Shown: piece by piece, positions 3,976 to 40,490 of the stretch | Position numbering within the stretch: position 1 is the first letter of the stretch | How the letters are laid out: each line of letters starts with the position of its first letter | Assembly (NCBI GenBank): GCA_013041925.1 | Contig: JABDRB010000009.1 | Location: 1-64,000 of the forward strand | Length of the DNA: 64,000 nt | From: Akkermansiaceae bacterium | GTDB taxonomy: Bacteria > Verrucomicrobiota > Verrucomicrobiia > Verrucomicrobiales > Akkermansiaceae | Direction of reading: 5' to 3' | Made by a program: the position numbers and the translations under genes | Notes under the pieces: generated by a model | The model's input: the letters and a program-made list of their open reading frames with translations, nothing else | Told to the model about the DNA's origin: nothing | Database searches by the model: none

Positions 3976-5193
3976 ATGAAAAAAAGAATCATCGTAACCG
4001 GAGGTGCCGGCTTTATCGGCTCTGCAGTCATCCGTCATCTCATCCAAAACACAGACTGGGAAGTGGTCAATGTGGATAAACTCACCTACGCTGGAAATCT
4101 CGACTCATTAAAAGAAGTAGCGACGAGTGATCGTTACACCTTTGAGCAAGTCGATATCTGTGACGCCGCTGAGGTCAAACGAGTCTTTGCCGATCATCAG
4201 CCCGATGGCGTTATGCACCTGGCTGCTGAGTCCCACGTCGACCGCTCGATTGATGGGCCAGGCGAGTTCATTCAGACCAACATCGTTGGCACATACACGC
4301 TGCTCCAGGCATCGCTCGCCTACTGGCGGGGGCTGCCGGAGGCAGCAGAGGAAGTTCAAGTTGGTAGTTCAAGTTCTAGAACTCAAAACTCGAACTCGAA
4401 CTCGAACTCGAACTCGAACTTAAACTTAAACTTAAACTTAAACTTAAACTTAAACTCAGAAACTTCAACTGCGCACAGCGCAGCATCAAAGTCGAGCTTT
4501 CGCTTCCATCACGTCTCGACCGATGAAGTTTATGGTGACCTCGATGAAACGAGCCTCTTCACAGAGGAAACATCATACGCCCCCAGCTCCCCCTACTCCG
4601 CCAGTAAGGCATCATCAGACCACCTCGTCAGATCATGGAATCGTACATTTGGATTACCCATATTAGTGACCAATTGCTCGAACAACTATGGCCCGTATCA
4701 TTTTCCTGAGAAGCTCATCCCCCTGATGATTCTCAACGCCCTCGAAGGCAAACCATTACCCGTCTACGGCGATGGCAAACAGGTGCGCGACTGGCTCTAT
4801 GTCGAAGACCATGCCCGCGCACTTTGCAAAGTCATCGCAGAGGGCAAGGTAGGAGAAACCTACAACATCGGAGGCAACAACGAAAAACAAAACATCGAAG
4901 TCGTCAAAACCCTCTGCACCATCCTCGACGACCGCGCCCCACTTCAACTTCAACTCCCAACTTCAACTCATAAGTCATACCACGAGTTAATCACCTACGT
5001 CACCGACCGCCCCGGCCACGACCTCCGCTACGCCATCGATGCCACCAAAATCAAAAACGATCTCGACTGGGAGCCTGAAGAAACCTTCGAATCCGGAATC
5101 GCCAAAACCGTCGACTGGTACCTCGCGAACAGCGAGTGGTGCCAACGCGTCCAAGATGGAAGCTACCAACGTGAGCGATTAGGCGAAGCCTAA
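3976..5193 (+). CDS. rfbB: dTDP-glucose 4,6-dehydratase with repeat-derived internal insertion
   Basis: Makes dTDP-4-keto-6-deoxyglucose. NAD-binding GGAGFIGS (residues 9-16), [25 protein letters not shown] and catalytic Tyr207-x3-Lys211 are intact. At 405 residues it is some 50 longer than usual. Residues about 126-170 are an Asn-Ser/Asn-Leu repeat coded by AACTCG and AACTTA hexamers (4351-4485), placed in the loop before [11 protein letters not shown] smaller LQLQLPTST insertion lies near residue 320. Both are in frame and away from catalytic motifs, so activity is plausible. No rmlC or rmlD is in the window; the product more likely goes to the ketoisomerase at 6912. Confidence 0.92.
4351..4485 (+). 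repeat. Hexamer repeat array inside rfbB
   Basis: AGTTCAAGTT-type units, a palindromic AGTTCTAGAACT, about five CGAACT units, then about six TTAAAC units, ending with a 15-base mini-hairpin at 4469-4483 (CTGCGC-ACA-GCGCAG). The same words and hairpin type make up the intergenic field at 5194-6034. Length 135 bases keeps the frame. Confidence 0.9.
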
Positions 5194-5349
5194 GTTCTCA
5201 TAGTTCGAGTTGCGAGTTCGAGTTCCAGGAGTCCAAGAGTGCGAGGACTAGAGCTCCCAACTCCCAACTCAGAACTCGAACTAAAGCGAAGCGCCCCTCG
5301 AACAACGGCACCGCCGTTCAACTAGAACATCAGCAAAGCTGATTAATAA
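5194..5349. repeat. AACTCGAACT repeat field upstream of four-helix-bundle gene
   Basis: Begins right after the rfbB stop. The left half has AGTTCGAGTT words and the right half their reverse complement (AACTCGAACT), so the segment can fold on itself. Then come CGAAGCGCCCCTCGAAC and 15-base mini-hairpins at 5304-5318 (AACGGC-ACC-GCCGTT) and 5329-5343 (ATCAGC-AAA-GCTGAT). Confidence 0.85.
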
Positions 5350-5706
5350 ATGAGCTCTTTTGAAGATCTACAAGTTTGGCGCCGATCCAAAGATCTAGCC
5401 TCGAAGGTGATCTTGGCGATTGCTCCGTCAAAGAATTACGGATTAAAAGATCAAATGATTCGCAGTGCGATTTCAGTTCCCTCAAATATAGCGGAGGGGG
5501 CTGAACGGAAAGGAACCAAAGAATTTGCCAATTTTATCAGTTATTCCAGTGGATCTTGTGCTGAATTAATGACGCAAATCATGATAGCCTCAGATATTGG
5601 CGAGCTTGATCGAGCTAAAGCCGATAACTTTTTGGCAGAATGTCGTGAAATTAGCAAAATGCTCTATGGACTTAGAAGGTCGTTGCACGACAGTTCGAGT
5701 TTATAG
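5350..5706 (+). CDS. Four-helix-bundle (S23/IVP-type) protein
   Basis: A 118-residue all-helical protein with the family's FEDLQVWRRSKDLA start and SVPSNIAEGAERKGTKEFANFI centre (residues about 42-65). The family was first met inside 23S rRNA intervening sequences and resembles the Avd protein of diversity-generating retroelements. No retroelement or variable repeat is seen here. Repeat fields lie on both sides, and the last codons (SLHDSSSL) are themselves repeat, including a GTCGT-TGC-ACGAC hairpin at 5679-5691. Function is unknown; nucleic-acid binding is a reasonable guess. A second family member is at 39308. Confidence 0.88.
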   Translation: MSSFEDLQVWRRSKDLASKVILAIAPSKNYGLKDQMIRSAISVPSNIAEGAERKGTKEFANFISYSSGSCAELMTQIMIASDIGELDRAKADNFLAECREISKMLYGLRRSLHDSSSL

Positions 5707-6034
5707 TTCGAGTAGTCGTTACACGACAGTTCTAGTTGCGAGTTGGCAGTTCGAGTCTAGAGTTCGAATACTAGAACTTGCAACTAACTACTCGAACTGA
5801 AGCGAAGCGCCCCTAGAACAACGACGCAGTCGTTAAACTAGAACTCAAAACTTATTACTCGAACAGGCGCTTTGCGCCTCTAGAACTAAAGCGAAGATCC
5901 CCTCGAACAACGGCACAGCCGTTAAACTAGAACTCAAAACTTATTACTCGAACAGGCGCTTTGCGCCTCCCGAACTGCGACAACGTCGCACAACTCGAAC
6001 TGTCGCAAAGCGACCTAAAATCTACGATTTTTCA
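5692..6034. repeat. AACTCGAACT repeat field with a series of mini-hairpins
   Basis: No gene apart from the last codons of the four-helix-bundle gene. Copies of AGTTCGAGT / ACTCGAACT / CTAGAACT alternate with perfect palindromes having three-base loops: 5715-5727, 5820-5834, 5865-5879, 5909-5923, 5954-5968, 5976-5990, 6002-6014 and 6017-6031. Stems differ except AGGCGC-TTT-GCGCCT, which occurs twice inside a duplicated unit (TAGAACTCAAAACTTATTAC shared). The field ends 3 bases before rmlA. Confidence 0.9.
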
Positions 6035-6898
6035 ATGAAAGGAATAATACTAGCAGGAGGGGCGGGGACACGCCTTCATCCGATCACGTTGGCGGTCTCA
6101 AAGCAGTTGATGCCGATCTATGACAAACCGATGATTTACTATCCGCTCTCAGTGTTGATGCTGGCGGGTATTCGGGAGATTCTCATCATTACGACTCCTG
6201 AAGATCAGGCGGCATTTCAGCGGCTGTTGGGGGATGGCTCAGAGCTAGGCTGCCGATTTGAATACAAAGTTCAGGAAGTTCCTAACGGACTGGCGCAGGC
6301 GTTTGTGATCGGTAAGGAATTTATCGGCGACGACAAGGTGGCGTTGGTTCTTGGTGATAACATTTTCTACGGTTCCGGATTTGGTGAGCTATTACGGAAA
6401 CATACGGACCCGGACGGAGCGGTGATTTTTGCAGCCCCAGTGCACGACCCTGAACGTTATGGGGTGGTTGAGTTTGATGAAAACCGAAAGGCAATATCAA
6501 TTGAAGAAAAGCCCACCGTGCCCAAGTCAAACTATGCGGTTCCCGGCCTCTATTTCTACGACAATGATGTGGTTGAAATTGCGGAATCCATCGAGCCGTC
6601 AGCACGTGGTGAATATGAAATCACCACCGTGAACCAAGTTTACCTTGAGAGAAAAAAACTGGAAGTGGGTGTGTTCAACCGCGGAGTCGCATGGTTGGAT
6701 ACGGGCACCTTTGCCTCACTGAATGAGGCCTCCACCTTTGTCCGCGTGATTGAAGAAAGGCAGGATCAAAAAATCGGCTGTATTGAAGAAGTGGCTTACC
6801 ATTCCAAGTTTATCGGTAAGGAGCAACTATTACGACTCGCTGAGAAATTCGATAAGTCCGGTTATGGAGATTATTTGAAACGAGTTGCAGGACAATAG
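6035..6898 (+). CDS. rmlA: Glucose-1-phosphate thymidylyltransferase
   Basis: Joins dTTP and glucose-1-phosphate to give dTDP-glucose, the substrate of rfbB. Full length at 287 residues with [11 protein letters not shown] near residue 8, the [11 protein letters not shown] substrate loop, [10 protein letters not shown], and the [21 protein letters not shown] block. The start codon lies directly after a repeat field with a hairpin (6017-6031) covering the place of a ribosome-binding site, which could affect translation. The following gene overlaps or abuts its stop, so rmlA probably leads the 6.0-17.9 kb operon. Confidence 0.95.
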
Positions 6899-31248: not shown

Positions 31249-33717
31249 ATGCGTAGCATCATCATCATATTTACCTGTGCCGCCTTGCTGGTGGCGGGGT
31301 TGATCGGGATCACACTGAGTGTGCCCTTGCAGGCGCCTGCGGTGATTCTTTTGGGCCTCGCTGCAATTTTTGCAGCAGCCCAAGTTGTGAAGTGTGGAAG
31401 TGCGGGAGTGCGGGAGTGCGGGAAGAAGGATAAGGGGAAAGAAGAGAGACAACAGACGACAGACGACAGACGGGGAAAAGACGGGCAACAGAGGGTAAAA
31501 GAATATAGATCACAGACGACAGACGACAGACAACAGAAGAAAGAGGAGTGCGGGAGTCTGGAACTGCAAAACTCCCAAACCACAGCCAACCGAGGGATCG
31601 GCTGGCTGTTGAGTTTGGTGGCGATTTTCTACTTTGTCGGGCGTGCCTGTTTATCGCCCGTGTGGGATCTGGGGGTTGAGGATTTGATGCTGATTTTATC
31701 GGCTGGCCTGCTCTATCTCATTGCGGGATACACGGTAGGGGGCAAGTCGGGCATACGTTTACGTCTAGGCCTGGCGGCTGTGGTGGTCGTCCTGCTGCTG
31801 CTGCATCTGGGGGCATGTGTTCTCCAGATCAAAGGCAGTGAAGGCTATTCCCTTTCCCTGTATTTAGGCGGGTCGAGCCGAGCTAGCGTCGATCATGTCA
31901 CCGGCATGTATGGCTACTATGGCAGCTTCGGGAACTTTGCGGTGATCGCGGGTTTGTTATGCTTGAGTTTGGGTGTTTGGGGGCGATTCAGCTATGGGAT
32001 ACGCACGATCATTTTTCTACTTGGTTTGACCGGTTTGGGTTTAGCTTTGTGGTCGCAGTCGCGATCCGCAGCTCTAAGCCTCGTGTTCGGTCTAGGATCG
32101 TTTGCTGTGATGATCCTGGTTTCGTTATCCGGTCAAACCGAAGCTCTGAAATTGAGATTGAAAATGGTCATTGGAGCACTCGGTCTTTTGGGGTTGATTG
32201 CTGGCTGCGTGGGTGGAGTGTGGGTCTTTAATCAGAGAGGAGTAGAAGGCCTCTCGGGGGTTTTTGATTCAGGAGTCCGGGTTTCTTACTGGGCGATGGC
32301 TGCGGAACAATGGGCCGATCATCCGTGGTTCGGCGCGGGTAGTCGGAGTTTTTCTTATGAATGTTTTCGCTATTGGAGTCCCAATTTAGATACGGGGCAG
32401 AGGAACCCTGAATTCGTACATAATGAATACCTTCAGTTGTTAGCCGATTATGGATTGATGGGACTGGTGTTGATTGTGGGGCTGCTTGGATGGCATTTCT
32501 ATTGGGGAGGTAAACAGGTGCATAGATTGGCTGAAAAGGTGGGGGAGGGTGGATTGAAGCAGGGGTCGAATGCGATCGCCCTGGGGATTGCGGGAGTGTG
32601 TGGCATGACGGCGATGGCAGTGCATATTTGTTTTGATTTTAGAACACATTTGTTGGCCAACCTTTTGCTCCTGGTGTGTTGTGCGGTGTGGATATTGCCG
32701 GTTCCGCGTAATCGGAAACAAGACGGAAGAAAGACGACAGAAGACAGACGACAGAGGATAAGAAGTTGGGTATTAGGGGGGGTGTTGCTTTTTCTGGGTT
32801 TGGGGGCTGTTGGGCTGGGTGGACATCAGCTGTGGGCTGGCTGGCCATTGGTTGAACATAAAATGGCCAAGGAGCATGGCGCATGGGCACCTGAGTCCGC
32901 CGACCGAGAGGTTTGCATTCCAGCATTGGAAGAATCACTAGCCAGAGCTCCACAGTGGAGACGGTATCAGCGCTTGGGGGTCTTGTATCGATTAGAGGCA
33001 GACAGTGTGGGAGAGAAAGCCAGGGAAGAGGCGCTGATGAAAGCTGAAGGTGCTTATTGGGCCTCGATGAAGCGTCACCCCCATAACCCAATTTCCCGCA
33101 TCAACCTTGCTGCGATTTACACCGCACAAAAAAAGTGGCAGTTGGCAGATGAGATGTATGCTTCTGCCGCTGAACTGGCTATAGCCCGTGAGCGCTGGTT
33201 TCGCATGCATAGACAGTGGGGAGATATGCACATTCTTTGGGCTCGAGATTTAACAGACAAGAGAGCACTCAGCGAGGTGGAGCCTCATTATTTGAGAGCT
33301 AAAGATTTATATAACTTCAGTTTTAACATAGCTCAAGATTATAGCATGAGGCGGTGGGTAGCGCGTTACACAAAAATATTGGTCGATTATGCAAGGTTCC
33401 TGGATAGTCAGAAAAAGTTTGCAGCCGCTGAAGTCGAGTTTCAAGAAGCTCAAAAATTGACGAATTGGTTTAACTGGCAAGTTGATACGAACTTAAATTT
33501 CTATTACGCTGACCATCTCTATGAAAGGGGAATGAGCGTGTGGTTGCAACGTAAGCCGGAAGAAGCCTATCAATTAATGAAACGAGCAAAAAAGGCTTTG
33601 CTGAGTCATCCTGATGTGAGTTCCGAAAAAATACAGAAAGACGAAACCTGGAAAACTCAAATGAAGAAGATCCAAGAGGTGATTGATTTTTTGGAGGCTA
33701 CAGGCATCAAAAAGTAG
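31249..33717 (+). CDS. O-antigen ligase-like membrane protein with TPR-like C-terminus and repeat-derived insertions
   Basis: An 822-residue protein: about 12 membrane segments up to residue 535, then a soluble C-terminal domain of about 280 residues with TPR-like helices (RISRINLAAIYTAQKKWQLADEMY-type pattern). The ligase loop holds YWAMAAEQWADHPWFGAGSRSF and NPEFVHNEYLQLLADYGLMG, typical of the Wzy_C family. Residues about 48-110, between two membrane segments, are hydrophilic QTTDDR-rich sequence coded by 7- and 8-base tandem repeats; a shorter one is at about 490-505. Both keep the frame and fall in polar loops. Confidence 0.82.
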   Translation: MRSIIIIFTCAALLVAGLIGITLSVPLQAPAVILLGLAAIFAAAQVVKCGSAGVRECGKKDKGKEERQQTTDDRRGKDGQQRVKEYRSQTTDDRQQKKEECGSLELQNSQTTANRGIGWLLSLVAIFYFVGRACLSPVWDLGVEDLMLILSAGLLYLIAGYTVGGKSGIRLRLGLAAVVVVLLLLHLGACVLQIKGSEGYSLSLYLGGSSRASVDHVTGMYGYYGSFGNFAVIAGLLCLSLGVWGRFSYGIRTIIFLLGLTGLGLALWSQSRSAALSLVFGLGSFAVMILVSLSGQTEALKLRLKMVIGALGLLGLIAGCVGGVWVFNQRGVEGLSGVFDSGVRVSYWAMAAEQWADHPWFGAGSRSFSYECFRYWSPNLDTGQRNPEFVHNEYLQLLADYGLMGLVLIVGLLGWHFYWGGKQVHRLAEKVGEGGLKQGSNAIALGIAGVCGMTAMAVHICFDFRTHLLANLLLLVCCAVWILPVPRNRKQDGRKTTEDRRQRIRSWVLGGVLLFLGLGAVGLGGHQLWAGWPLVEHKMAKEHGAWAPESADREVCIPALEESLARAPQWRRYQRLGVLYRLEADSVGEKAREEALMKAEGAYWASMKRHPHNPISRINLAAIYTAQKKWQLADEMYASAAELAIARERWFRMHRQWGDMHILWARDLTDKRALSEVEPHYLRAKDLYNFSFNIAQDYSMRRWVARYTKILVDYARFLDSQKKFAAAEVEFQEAQKLTNWFNWQVDTNLNFYYADHLYERGMSVWLQRKPEEAYQLMKRAKKALLSHPDVSSEKIQKDETWKTQMKKIQEVIDFLEATGIKK
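31391..31581 (+). repeat. Octamer and heptamer repeat array inside the O-antigen ligase gene
   Basis: Three GTGCGGGA units in a row (about 31399-31422), then two copies of a 20-base block of CAGACGA heptamers at 31452-31471 and 31512-31531, then another GTGCGGGAG near 31549. GTGCGGGA is the reverse complement of the TCCCGCAC words in the array at 39727-39774. Confidence 0.9.
32716..32763 (+). repeat. Second, short GACGACAGA-type repeat in the same gene
   Basis: AAGACGACAGAAGACAGACG followed by ACAGAGG, related to the CAGACGA units at 31452-31531, coding a polar RKTTEDRRQR stretch between two hydrophobic segments. Confidence 0.75.
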
Positions 33718-39265: not shown

Positions 39266-39307
39266 GCGTGGGTTGGAGAGTTCTTGGTTTTTTAGTTCTT
39301 GGCTGTT

Positions 39308-39622
39308 ATGGGCATTACAAAATTCGAAGATATTACGGCTTGGCAAAAAGCGCGTGAGCTTACTTCCTGTATTTATCGTCAGACACTTATCCCTGAGTTC
39401 AGGAAGCATTATGGGTTGGTTGACCAGATCCGCCGTGCCTCGGGATCGGTTATGCATAATATCGCCGAAGGTTTCGATGCGGGTTCGAATAAAGAGTTGG
39501 TCCGTTTCTTACGTTACAGTTTTCGATCTGCCAGTGAGGTTCAAAGCCAGTTGTCTATTGCGTTGGATGTCCGATACATAAACCAAGCTGAGTTGGATCG
39601 GCTCTATCAACAAGCGACCTAA
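39308..39622 (+). CDS. Four-helix-bundle (S23/IVP-type) protein, second copy
   Basis: From the ATG at 39308 it has 104 residues: ITKFEDITAWQKARELT, then VDQIRRASGSVMHNIAEGFDAGSNKELVRFLRYS, the family signature. It is only distantly like the copy at 5350, so it is not a recent local duplicate. It separates the exosortase gene from epsI, which are usually adjacent, and lies between a short AGTTCTTGG direct repeat (39281-39301 region) and an octamer array (39727-39774). Function unknown. Confidence 0.87.
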   Translation: MGITKFEDITAWQKARELTSCIYRQTLIPEFRKHYGLVDQIRRASGSVMHNIAEGFDAGSNKELVRFLRYSFRSASEVQSQLSIALDVRYINQAELDRLYQQAT

Positions 39623-39716
39623 ATTAAAAAATTACTTGGAGGCTTTATCAAATATTTGATCAATAAAGGATAGTTCCCCAACGCCCGCACTCCCCACTTC
39701 CCACTTCCCCACCCCT

Positions 39717-40490
39717 ATGACCGCCGAACTCCAGCACTCCCGTACTTCAGCACTCCCGCACTCCAGCACTTCAGCCGTTGTAAAGCGGCTGTATATTCTC
39801 GCCGTATTCCTAGCGGTCGGTTTTTCCATGATCTGGCTGTTGCCGAAGTCGGAGTCGATGAAACCCACCAGGCTGGCTCGAAACCTTCCGATGCAGTTTG
39901 CTTCCATGCAGGGGAAGAGGGTTTCGGTCACGGGTAAGGAACTGGATATTCTAGCTAAGGATACGGAGTTTGAGCGGGCGAGTTTTATCAATCTGGATGA
40001 ACCCACACATCCCGCTATTGAGGTTTCCGTGGTGTTTTCCGGTAAGGATCTCAACAACAGTATTCACCGGCCCGAGCGCTGTCTTCGATCGCAGGGGTGG
40101 AATTTCTCCAAGCAGCGCAAGGTGGTGATCAAGGGGGCCATGCCGGATGGCTCCGGTATGCCGTTCCAAGAGATTGTGTGTGAAAAATCCGTGCAGCTTG
40201 AAAATGGAAAGACGATCCAAGTCATGCGGGTCCAGTATTACACCTTTTTTGGTCATACCGCGATTACACAGGATCATTACGGTCGGACGCTGCAGGATAT
40301 GAAGGATCGTTTGTTTAAGGGCTACGACCAGCAATGGGCGTATGCGACCTTTTCCATGCCCGTCACTCGGGTCTACGCCGACCAAGGACTGACGCGACCA
40401 GGAGTAAAAACCTACACCCTCGAAGAATCCGAAGCGATCCTCGCCGACTTCATACGCCAGCTGGCCCCGAAGGTGGTTGGCCAGAACTGA
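39717..40490 (+). CDS. EpsI family exosortase-associated protein (DUF3485)
   Basis: A 257-residue protein with one N-terminal membrane segment (residues about 25-42) and a periplasmic domain containing the family marks SVVFSGKDLNNSIHRPERCLRSQGW and VQYYTFFGHTAITQDH. The family always accompanies exosortases and is thought to help polymer export or maturation. Residues 4-20 (ELQHSRTSALPHSSTSA) are coded entirely by the octamer array at 39727-39774. No ATG, GTG or TTG follows in frame before the membrane segment, so the repeat seems to have replaced the native N-terminus. Confidence 0.87.
   Translation: MTAELQHSRTSALPHSSTSAVVKRLYILAVFLAVGFSMIWLLPKSESMKPTRLARNLPMQFASMQGKRVSVTGKELDILAKDTEFERASFINLDEPTHPAIEVSVVFSGKDLNNSIHRPERCLRSQGWNFSKQRKVVIKGAMPDGSGMPFQEIVCEKSVQLENGKTIQVMRVQYYTFFGHTAITQDHYGRTLQDMKDRLFKGYDQQWAYATFSMPVTRVYADQGLTRPGVKTYTLEESEAILADFIRQLAPKVVGQN
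39727..39774 (+). repeat. Six 8-bp tandem units forming the start of epsI
   Basis: AACTCCAG CACTCCCG, then TACTTCAG CACTCCCG, then CACTCCAG CACTTCAG; a looser run of ACTTCC/ACTCCC words precedes it at about 39683-39715. The units match, on the opposite strand, the GTGCGGGA units at 31.4 kb. Confidence 0.9.

Follow-up and report, generated by a model that had tools for sequence, protein, structure and literature searches.

A four-helix-bundle gene and its matched inverted repeat arms as a probable mobile cassette of bacterial operon junctions

Why does a gene of the S23p type, a family known from the intervening sequences (IVS) of 23S rRNA genes, stand in a field of short repeats between rfbB and rfbA, and do gene and repeats form one element? 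The window analysed here, a stretch of 64,000 nucleotides, contains rfbB (dTDP-glucose 4,6-dehydratase; TIGR01181, 498 bits) at 3976..5193 and an rfbA homologue, named from sequence, at 6035..6898. Between them, and like both of them on the + strand, lies a gene at 5350..5706 for a protein of 118 aa that matched PF05635 and TIGR02436 at 111 and 109 bits (curated cut-offs 33.8 and 24). We use fhb as shorthand for such four-helix-bundle (S23p-type, TIGR02436/PF05635) genes; profile matches, an AlphaFold model, and Foldseek all identify the window gene as one. Both spacers around it are full of AGTT/AACT repeats and small hairpins, so that the bracketing of the gene described in an earlier note on this DNA holds on both sides. 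The same note had the repeat supplying the last codons of the gene, and the 3' repeat does encode the final DSSSL and the stop codon.

The whole cassette, consisting of a 5' repeat arm, the fhb gene, and 3' repeat arms, spans 5194..6016 (+) from the rfbB stop codon to rfbA. The 5' arm (5195..5283) is built of AGTT/AACT repeats of 6-7 nt and partly folds on itself (5201-5218 with 5266-5283). Two small hairpins, AACGGCACCGCCGTT and ATCAGCAAAGCTGAT, recognised as palindromes by direct reading, occupy the gap between arm and gene (5304..5343). The 3' arm (5679..5812) contains the hairpins GTCGTTGCACGAC and GTCGTTACACGAC, then an AGTT array, then an AACT array. Two direct repeats of 89 nt each, 91% alike and with variable hairpins within AACT repeats, cover 5791..5968, and a terminal AACTCGAACT with hairpins TGCGACAACGTCGCA and GTCGCAAAGCGAC at 5969..6016 ends 18 nt upstream of rfbA. 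The two arms pair with each other at 5246-5282 (5' arm) and 5728-5757 (3' arm). To score such complementarity, we reverse-complemented the 220 nt downstream of a gene and aligned them with the 220 nt upstream; the window cassette scored 32, where the 99th percentile of neighbour-gene controls is 18. With its 840 bp, self-folded arms, and units of 6-7 nt, the window element is atypical, being longer and less regular than most.

The repeats around the gene were strongly concentrated. Allowing at most one mismatch, AACTCGAACT occurred 22 times in the window (3.7 expected; 0/100 shuffles reached 22), and 18 of these matches cluster at 4353-6001. The arm unit can be written AACTNNN with 6-7 nt spacing, and it becomes a strict hexamer within rfbB, where the reading frame is kept. 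There, at 4353..4476 (+), the period is exactly 6 nt and the repeats encode a low-complexity loop, SNSNSN...LNLNLN, inserted in frame and absent from 16 related RfbB proteins. This bears out the earlier observation that the same repeat language sits inside the neighbouring gene. Beyond this locus the sequence was not dispersed. Exact matches to AACTCGAACT in the 3.28-Mb genome numbered 20, ten of them at the window locus, and the reversed control gave 15; on these counts AACTCGAACT does not qualify as a dispersed repeat family. It is a dialect of the window element alone, and the idea of a single repeat language that spreads is not supported as stated; every element has its own.

Three PF05635 genes were present in the genome: the window gene, one on contig C7, and one at 39.3 kb of the window. 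The contig C7 gene is preceded by AGAGGACAGACA repeats and followed by CTGTCGTCTG repeats of reverse-complement type, and the 39.3-kb gene has a further repeat pair with the same architecture in other words. This second cassette of the window (39274..39775, +) comprises repeats at 39274-39306, a gene matching PF05635 at 109 bits, and repeats from ~39683 to 39775. Here the earlier note was right about the family of the gene near 39308 and about its flanking repeats of another flavour. The arms, on the other hand, are no longer matched (score 11), the 3' repeats extend into the next ORF, and a TAA at 39620-39622 ends the gene early; it is this early stop and the mismatched arms that make the cassette look decayed. 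In the downstream ORF (39717-39790) the repeat array codes for the start, MTAELQHSRTSALPHSSTSA. With only three copies, one of them decayed, the cassette has not been amplified in this genome.

Repeats also occur apart from any fhb gene. Arrays of period 8 and 7 at 31387..31544 (+) run in frame inside an ORF of 822 aa (31249-33717) that is O-antigen-ligase-like by eye, and the same repeat language returns near 32650. The languages at 31387-31544 match those of the 39.3-kb and contig C7 elements, so these repeats have apparently spread without an fhb gene. Such solitary arrays are what one would expect if host slippage produced heptamer arrays in any intergenic spacer and fhb genes simply happened to land in them. 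Heptamer repeats of this kind are over-represented and intergenic in Xanthomonas (GGGAATC) and Nostoc, each genome having ~90-180 sites, and no partner gene has been reported for them (PMC4692102), which would also fit slippage. Arrays of period 6-9 are scarce in the present genome, however, with 12 in the 1.18 Mb examined, and several of these are at fhb loci.

A survey of fhb genes in other bacteria tells further against slippage. Among 98 fhb genes in relatives the median score of a gene's own two flanks was 23, compared with 11 for mixed pairs between loci and 11 for 257 neighbouring ORFs, which had no matched inverted arms and whose 99th percentile (18) set our control level. Scores >18 were reached by 71% of the relatives' fhb genes vs 2.9% of mixed pairs; the other 29% of copies were not above the control level. 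In 84 fhb genes from 80 named loci in many phyla the medians were 20 and 11, with 43% above the control 99th percentile and 57% not, many of the latter having weak arms. Genes for ParE toxins, taken as a control for sporadic small genes, lacked matched arms (median 11, 3% >18). We consider slippage a very improbable cause, and one already disfavoured. The proposed test, whether repeats flank fhb genes more often than other genes, was thus strongly positive when applied to matched inverted repeats of any sequence.

The arms are degenerate tandem repeats. When lags of 4-15 were compared, the best was 7 in 118/182 copies and 14 in 29/182, and random windows lacked the lag-7 peak. Inverted arm pairs 250-1100 nt apart enclosed an fhb gene or a GxxExxY gene (described below) in 140/180 cases in 1.7 Mb of sequence, a figure that expresses specificity and not genome-wide frequency because these sequences were fetched around such genes; some of the pairs without cargo were N runs or coding sequence, and some were copies of the window locus that overlap one another. 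Altogether, 177 distinct elements from many phyla have degenerate inverted arms of ~7-nt units that are matched within elements and not between them. No phage record contained an fhb match. The earlier proposal that the protein gene and its repeats make up one element is upheld by the statistics of the 182 copies, by sister plasmids, and by the window junction itself, and from these sequence comparisons we conclude with high confidence that the fhb gene with its matched arms is a mobile cassette.

The AlphaFold model of the window fhb protein has four helices (mean pLDDT 96), and Foldseek found 2GSC (Xanthomonas) as the best match (TM 0.88) and 2RLD at 0.80. We know of no function for 2GSC (XCC0516). 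The predicted resemblance to Avd of diversity-generating retroelements stands at the level of the fold, which the two share at TM 0.73-0.75 (4DWL, 8UBE) with ~10% identity. The 2GSC protein assembles into a homopentamer ring (PMC4990558). The only family match of the window cassette gene was to PF05635, and a Y1/HUH transposase was absent. One could suppose a MITE-like cassette whose movement depends on a trans-acting transposase or reverse transcriptase unrelated to it, with the fhb protein as mere cargo: the fhb cassette encodes no cutting or copying enzyme, and the fold is like that of Avd, the partner of a reverse transcriptase. The arm sequences vary from element to element, though, which leaves a sequence-specific transposase without a constant target to recognise, and the repeat period changes with the cargo, suggesting that the cargo matters. 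We regard such trans mobilisation as rather unlikely.

The link between period and cargo comes from a second kind of cassette. In two relatives the arms at the nrdB/nrdA junction enclose a GxxExxY gene (PF13366, PD-(D/E)XK nuclease superfamily). Thirty GxxExxY genes in relatives had a median arm score of 27 vs 12 for mixed pairs, and their arms favoured period 9 (best in 15/30), vs 7 for fhb. Plasmid GxxExxY genes with arms were found in Sphingomonas (fabD / fabG) and Bacteroides (after radA), and arms were not found for the plasmid copies of Fusobacteria, Treponema, and Persicobacter. This is a sister cassette, with 9-nt arms around a gene of the PD-(D/E)XK family and with junctions in common with fhb. 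Because each cargo family comes with its own period, the protein may be what reads the repeats; that the fhb protein reads its own arms we hold to be about as likely as not.

Cassettes sit between operon genes, with the 177 elements spread over ~106 junctions, 22 shared and 84 single. Neighbours recognised by family models include metK/ahcY, nrdB (upstream), cysN, ilvN, carB, groEL, sucD, IMP dehydrogenase, and livG. The upstream gene was co-directional in 159/171 loci; antisense copies occur at the nrdA/nrdB junction of Nostoc edaphicum and in Calothrix. Occupancy is variable. The rfbB/rfbA junction of the window is empty in one relative (G033) and holds a GxxExxY cassette in another (G029). 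The nrdB/nrdA junction of relatives contains a short spacer (65-250 nt in most), a cassette, remnant-like sequence, or the sister cassette; most relatives have no cassette there, and occupancy is patchy within genus and family. Three loci (L337, L318, and L330) have arm-like repeats at nrdB/nrdA and no cargo gene, and these are probably decayed cassettes.

Elements that recur at a few junctions, e.g. nrdB/nrdA and metK/ahcY, might instead be resident operon control units, domesticated regulators formed by the fhb gene and hairpins. Purifying selection on the protein would suit such a role (dN/dS 0.07-0.14 in same-site fhb pairs of relatives). The same patchiness, with nrdB/nrdA empty in most relatives, and the scatter over so many different junctions are at odds with it, as is the complete replacement of arms while gene and site persist (see below), and we find such a regulatory unit highly doubtful.

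The clearest gains and losses were in sister Nostoc plasmids, where the proposed comparison of orthologous sites gave clean presence and absence of the gene together with its repeats. At one junction of genes A and B, TTCTAG-GTT-ATG or a near-identical sequence, four plasmids are empty and three have arm, gene, and arm; in pNsp_a, TTCTA flanks the element on both sides, the sole junction showing this. At the B/C junction (TAA/ATG) the spacer is 0 nt in three plasmids and pNsp_c has a 506-nt insert. The Nostoc TraM and nrdA/nrdB junctions likewise showed presence and absence. The empty Nostoc junctions were without any trace of repeats, contrary to what slippage-born arrays awaiting a gene would leave.

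The TraM junction also suggests how cassettes spread. In two plasmids the fhb genes had a dS of 0.0 and one non-synonymous change, while the TraM genes had a dS of 0.99 and were 83% identical; identity was 97-100% over the element and fell to 70-80% farther out. Such an identity peak at the element is as would be left by homing or other recombination-driven spread. A pattern like same-site acquisition with co-converted flanks was seen at two Nostoc junctions, and plain recombination would look alike: the peak could come from ordinary homologous recombination of plasmids carrying the element passively. On balance we think a homing-like spread moderately probable.

Two further comparisons were set aside. 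Xanthomonas carA/carB gave no clean empty site, because most of the other loci hold unrelated small ORFs, and 3/30 species loci had an fhb cassette. The plasmids 1 and 2 of Calothrix NIES-22 have shared neighbours and represent a segmental copy only. As an observation in its own right, carA/carB of Xanthomonas (L226-L255) is a general insertion spot with several unrelated small genes by species, and in three Xanthomonas species the fhb arm encodes the last CarA codons.

Arms can be wholly different where gene and site are shared. We compared arms only between elements, since 150-nt windows are confounded by neighbouring genes. Elements at nrdB/nrdA whose proteins are 77-81% identical had unrelated arms (scores 7-10, background 8), and in each such element its own two arms still matched. 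One metK/ahcY element (L057), in turn, has arms in common with nrdB/nrdA elements (scores 29-31). These sequences indicate that arms can travel with the gene or be replaced as a pair.

What keeps the two arms matched bears on the level at which the element acts. In an RNA-level IVS the arms would form a stem within the polycistronic mRNA, cleavage of this stem by RNase III would free the fhb message, and selection on the stem would maintain complementarity; the element may even move through RNA. The complementary arms invite this reading, as the 23S IVS of Coxiella works in this way, and so does the prevalence of co-directional upstream genes. Folding of the window transcript is also much stronger than that of shuffled sequences (z = -8.1), as expected of any inverted repeat. 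The mismatches between arms point elsewhere. They showed no G·U excess but the opposite bias (G·U 254 vs A·C-type 338, p = 6e-4), and again none at arm identity >=0.88 (G·U 12 vs A·C 30), a result that argues against pairing in the sense RNA as the force that maintains the arms, in a test that is indirect because out-of-register repeats bring noise. The antisense copies of Nostoc and Calothrix are a second difficulty. We consider RNA pairing an unlikely basis for the match and favour copying at the DNA level as its cause; RNase III processing might then follow from it.

Among known systems the closest are the 23S IVS of Coxiella and Leptospira, in which an S23p/PF05635 ORF likewise lies inside an element with inverted complementary ends. 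The Coxiella IVS has 428 nt, an S23p ORF, 28-bp terminal inverted repeats, and 3-4 tandem heptamers (GACAGAT/GACAGAA) upstream of the ORF, and RNase III excises it (PMC4990558). IVS are patchy and thought to be horizontally acquired, and an older idea has the ORF aid their mobility (as cited in PMC4990558). Heptamers by the ORF are thus common to Coxiella and to fhb cassettes as a class, though the window copy has mixed units of 6-7 nt and heptamers, seen in Coxiella, are not known to define all IVS. The IVS reside inside a 23S (or 16S) rRNA gene, whereas fhb cassettes lie between protein genes at many junctions, sometimes in antisense; cassette arms also vary from copy to copy, and there is a sister cargo of a nuclease family. 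Because the defining rRNA location does not apply at rfbB/rfbA, we do not count the window element among the 23S IVS; by analogy it probably works like one and is of the same stock. Kinship of the cassettes with S23-type intervening sequences seems to us likely. The possible new kind of element that had been envisaged is not entirely new, given that 23S IVS already pair this protein family with complementary ends.

STRR and heptamer simple repeats of cyanobacteria, and the GGGAATC repeats of Xanthomonas, resemble the arms in unit length, intergenic position, and inverted pairs. A Xanthomonas genome has 70-75 inverted heptamer pairs, for which no partner gene is reported (PMC4692102), and TAACTGA heptamers occur in Beggiatoaceae, cyanobacteria, and Bacteroidetes (PMC4679880). 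Elements of Nostoc and Anabaena in our set use the heptamers GGGAACA, GGGAGTA, AGTCAGG, and GGTGACA. In the papers we found, the repeats come with neither a partner gene nor a mobility mechanism, while here they are the ends of a gene-bearing unit. In the open-access literature we found no account linking fhb or GxxExxY proteins to intercistronic repeats.

Other elements share single features. REP/REPIN sequences with RAYT likewise place a small protein gene between inverted short repeats and also occur as solo copies; the fhb cassette differs in having no Y1/HUH transposase and in an arm sequence that is not conserved within the genome. Homing endonuclease genes resemble the cassettes in their patchy occupation of fixed junctions and in an identity peak with declining flanks, and the sister cargo belongs to a PD-(D/E)XK nuclease family, but fhb is not a known nuclease, and cassettes are intergenic and framed by repeat arms. 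Compared with a MITE or classical transposon, the cassette has inverted ends, though unconserved between copies, and TTCTA on both sides at one junction.

Taken as a whole, the observations are best explained by a widespread small mobile cassette at operon junctions, 23S-IVS-like and helped by its own protein, an account we hold with moderate confidence. The cassette would consist of an fhb gene between inverted arms of degenerate ~7-nt repeats, inserted amid operon genes, and would be a selfish element of the 23S IVS kind that resides in intercistronic spacers, where it may do little harm. The fhb protein, predicted to fold like Avd and the ring-forming 2GSC, may recognise its own arms by their phased repeats and help to position the element at junctions, with host enzymes presumably cutting and joining the DNA. 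Spread to the same site would be homing-like, dragging along some flanking DNA, and the arms would be matched at the DNA level rather than through RNA pairing.

A broader reading, which we put forward tentatively and as somewhat doubtful, is an unrecognised class of minimal cassettes, each with a single small gene, that enter operon junctions throughout the bacteria and in which the protein sets the period (7 for fhb, 9 for GxxExxY), arms are remade as matched pairs with the protein retained, and both STRR-type heptamers and 23S IVS have their source. To our knowledge the S23p proteins have solved structures and no known function, rRNA IVS lack a known mechanism of mobility, and the heptamer repeats so frequent between bacterial genes are without explanation. 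If the protein and phased repeats are one mobile unit, all three puzzles could be tested with one cloned cassette, and the cassettes would link a long-known rRNA-gene parasite to the unexplained seven-letter repeats of bacterial genomes. They would also be a common cause of spacer change in conserved operons (nrdB/nrdA, metK/ahcY, cysD/cysN, carA/carB, and others), and would name a cause for low-complexity protein inserts such as that in RfbB of this genome.

Some loci were more complex than a single cassette. Four (L056, L094, L097, and L104) have 2-3 fhb genes within a few kb, and the L104 and L097 contigs have a GxxExxY gene near the fhb genes too. On a plasmid of Anabaena sp. 90 (L409) an fhb cassette lies amid a CRISPR operon, at cas6 / cas4.
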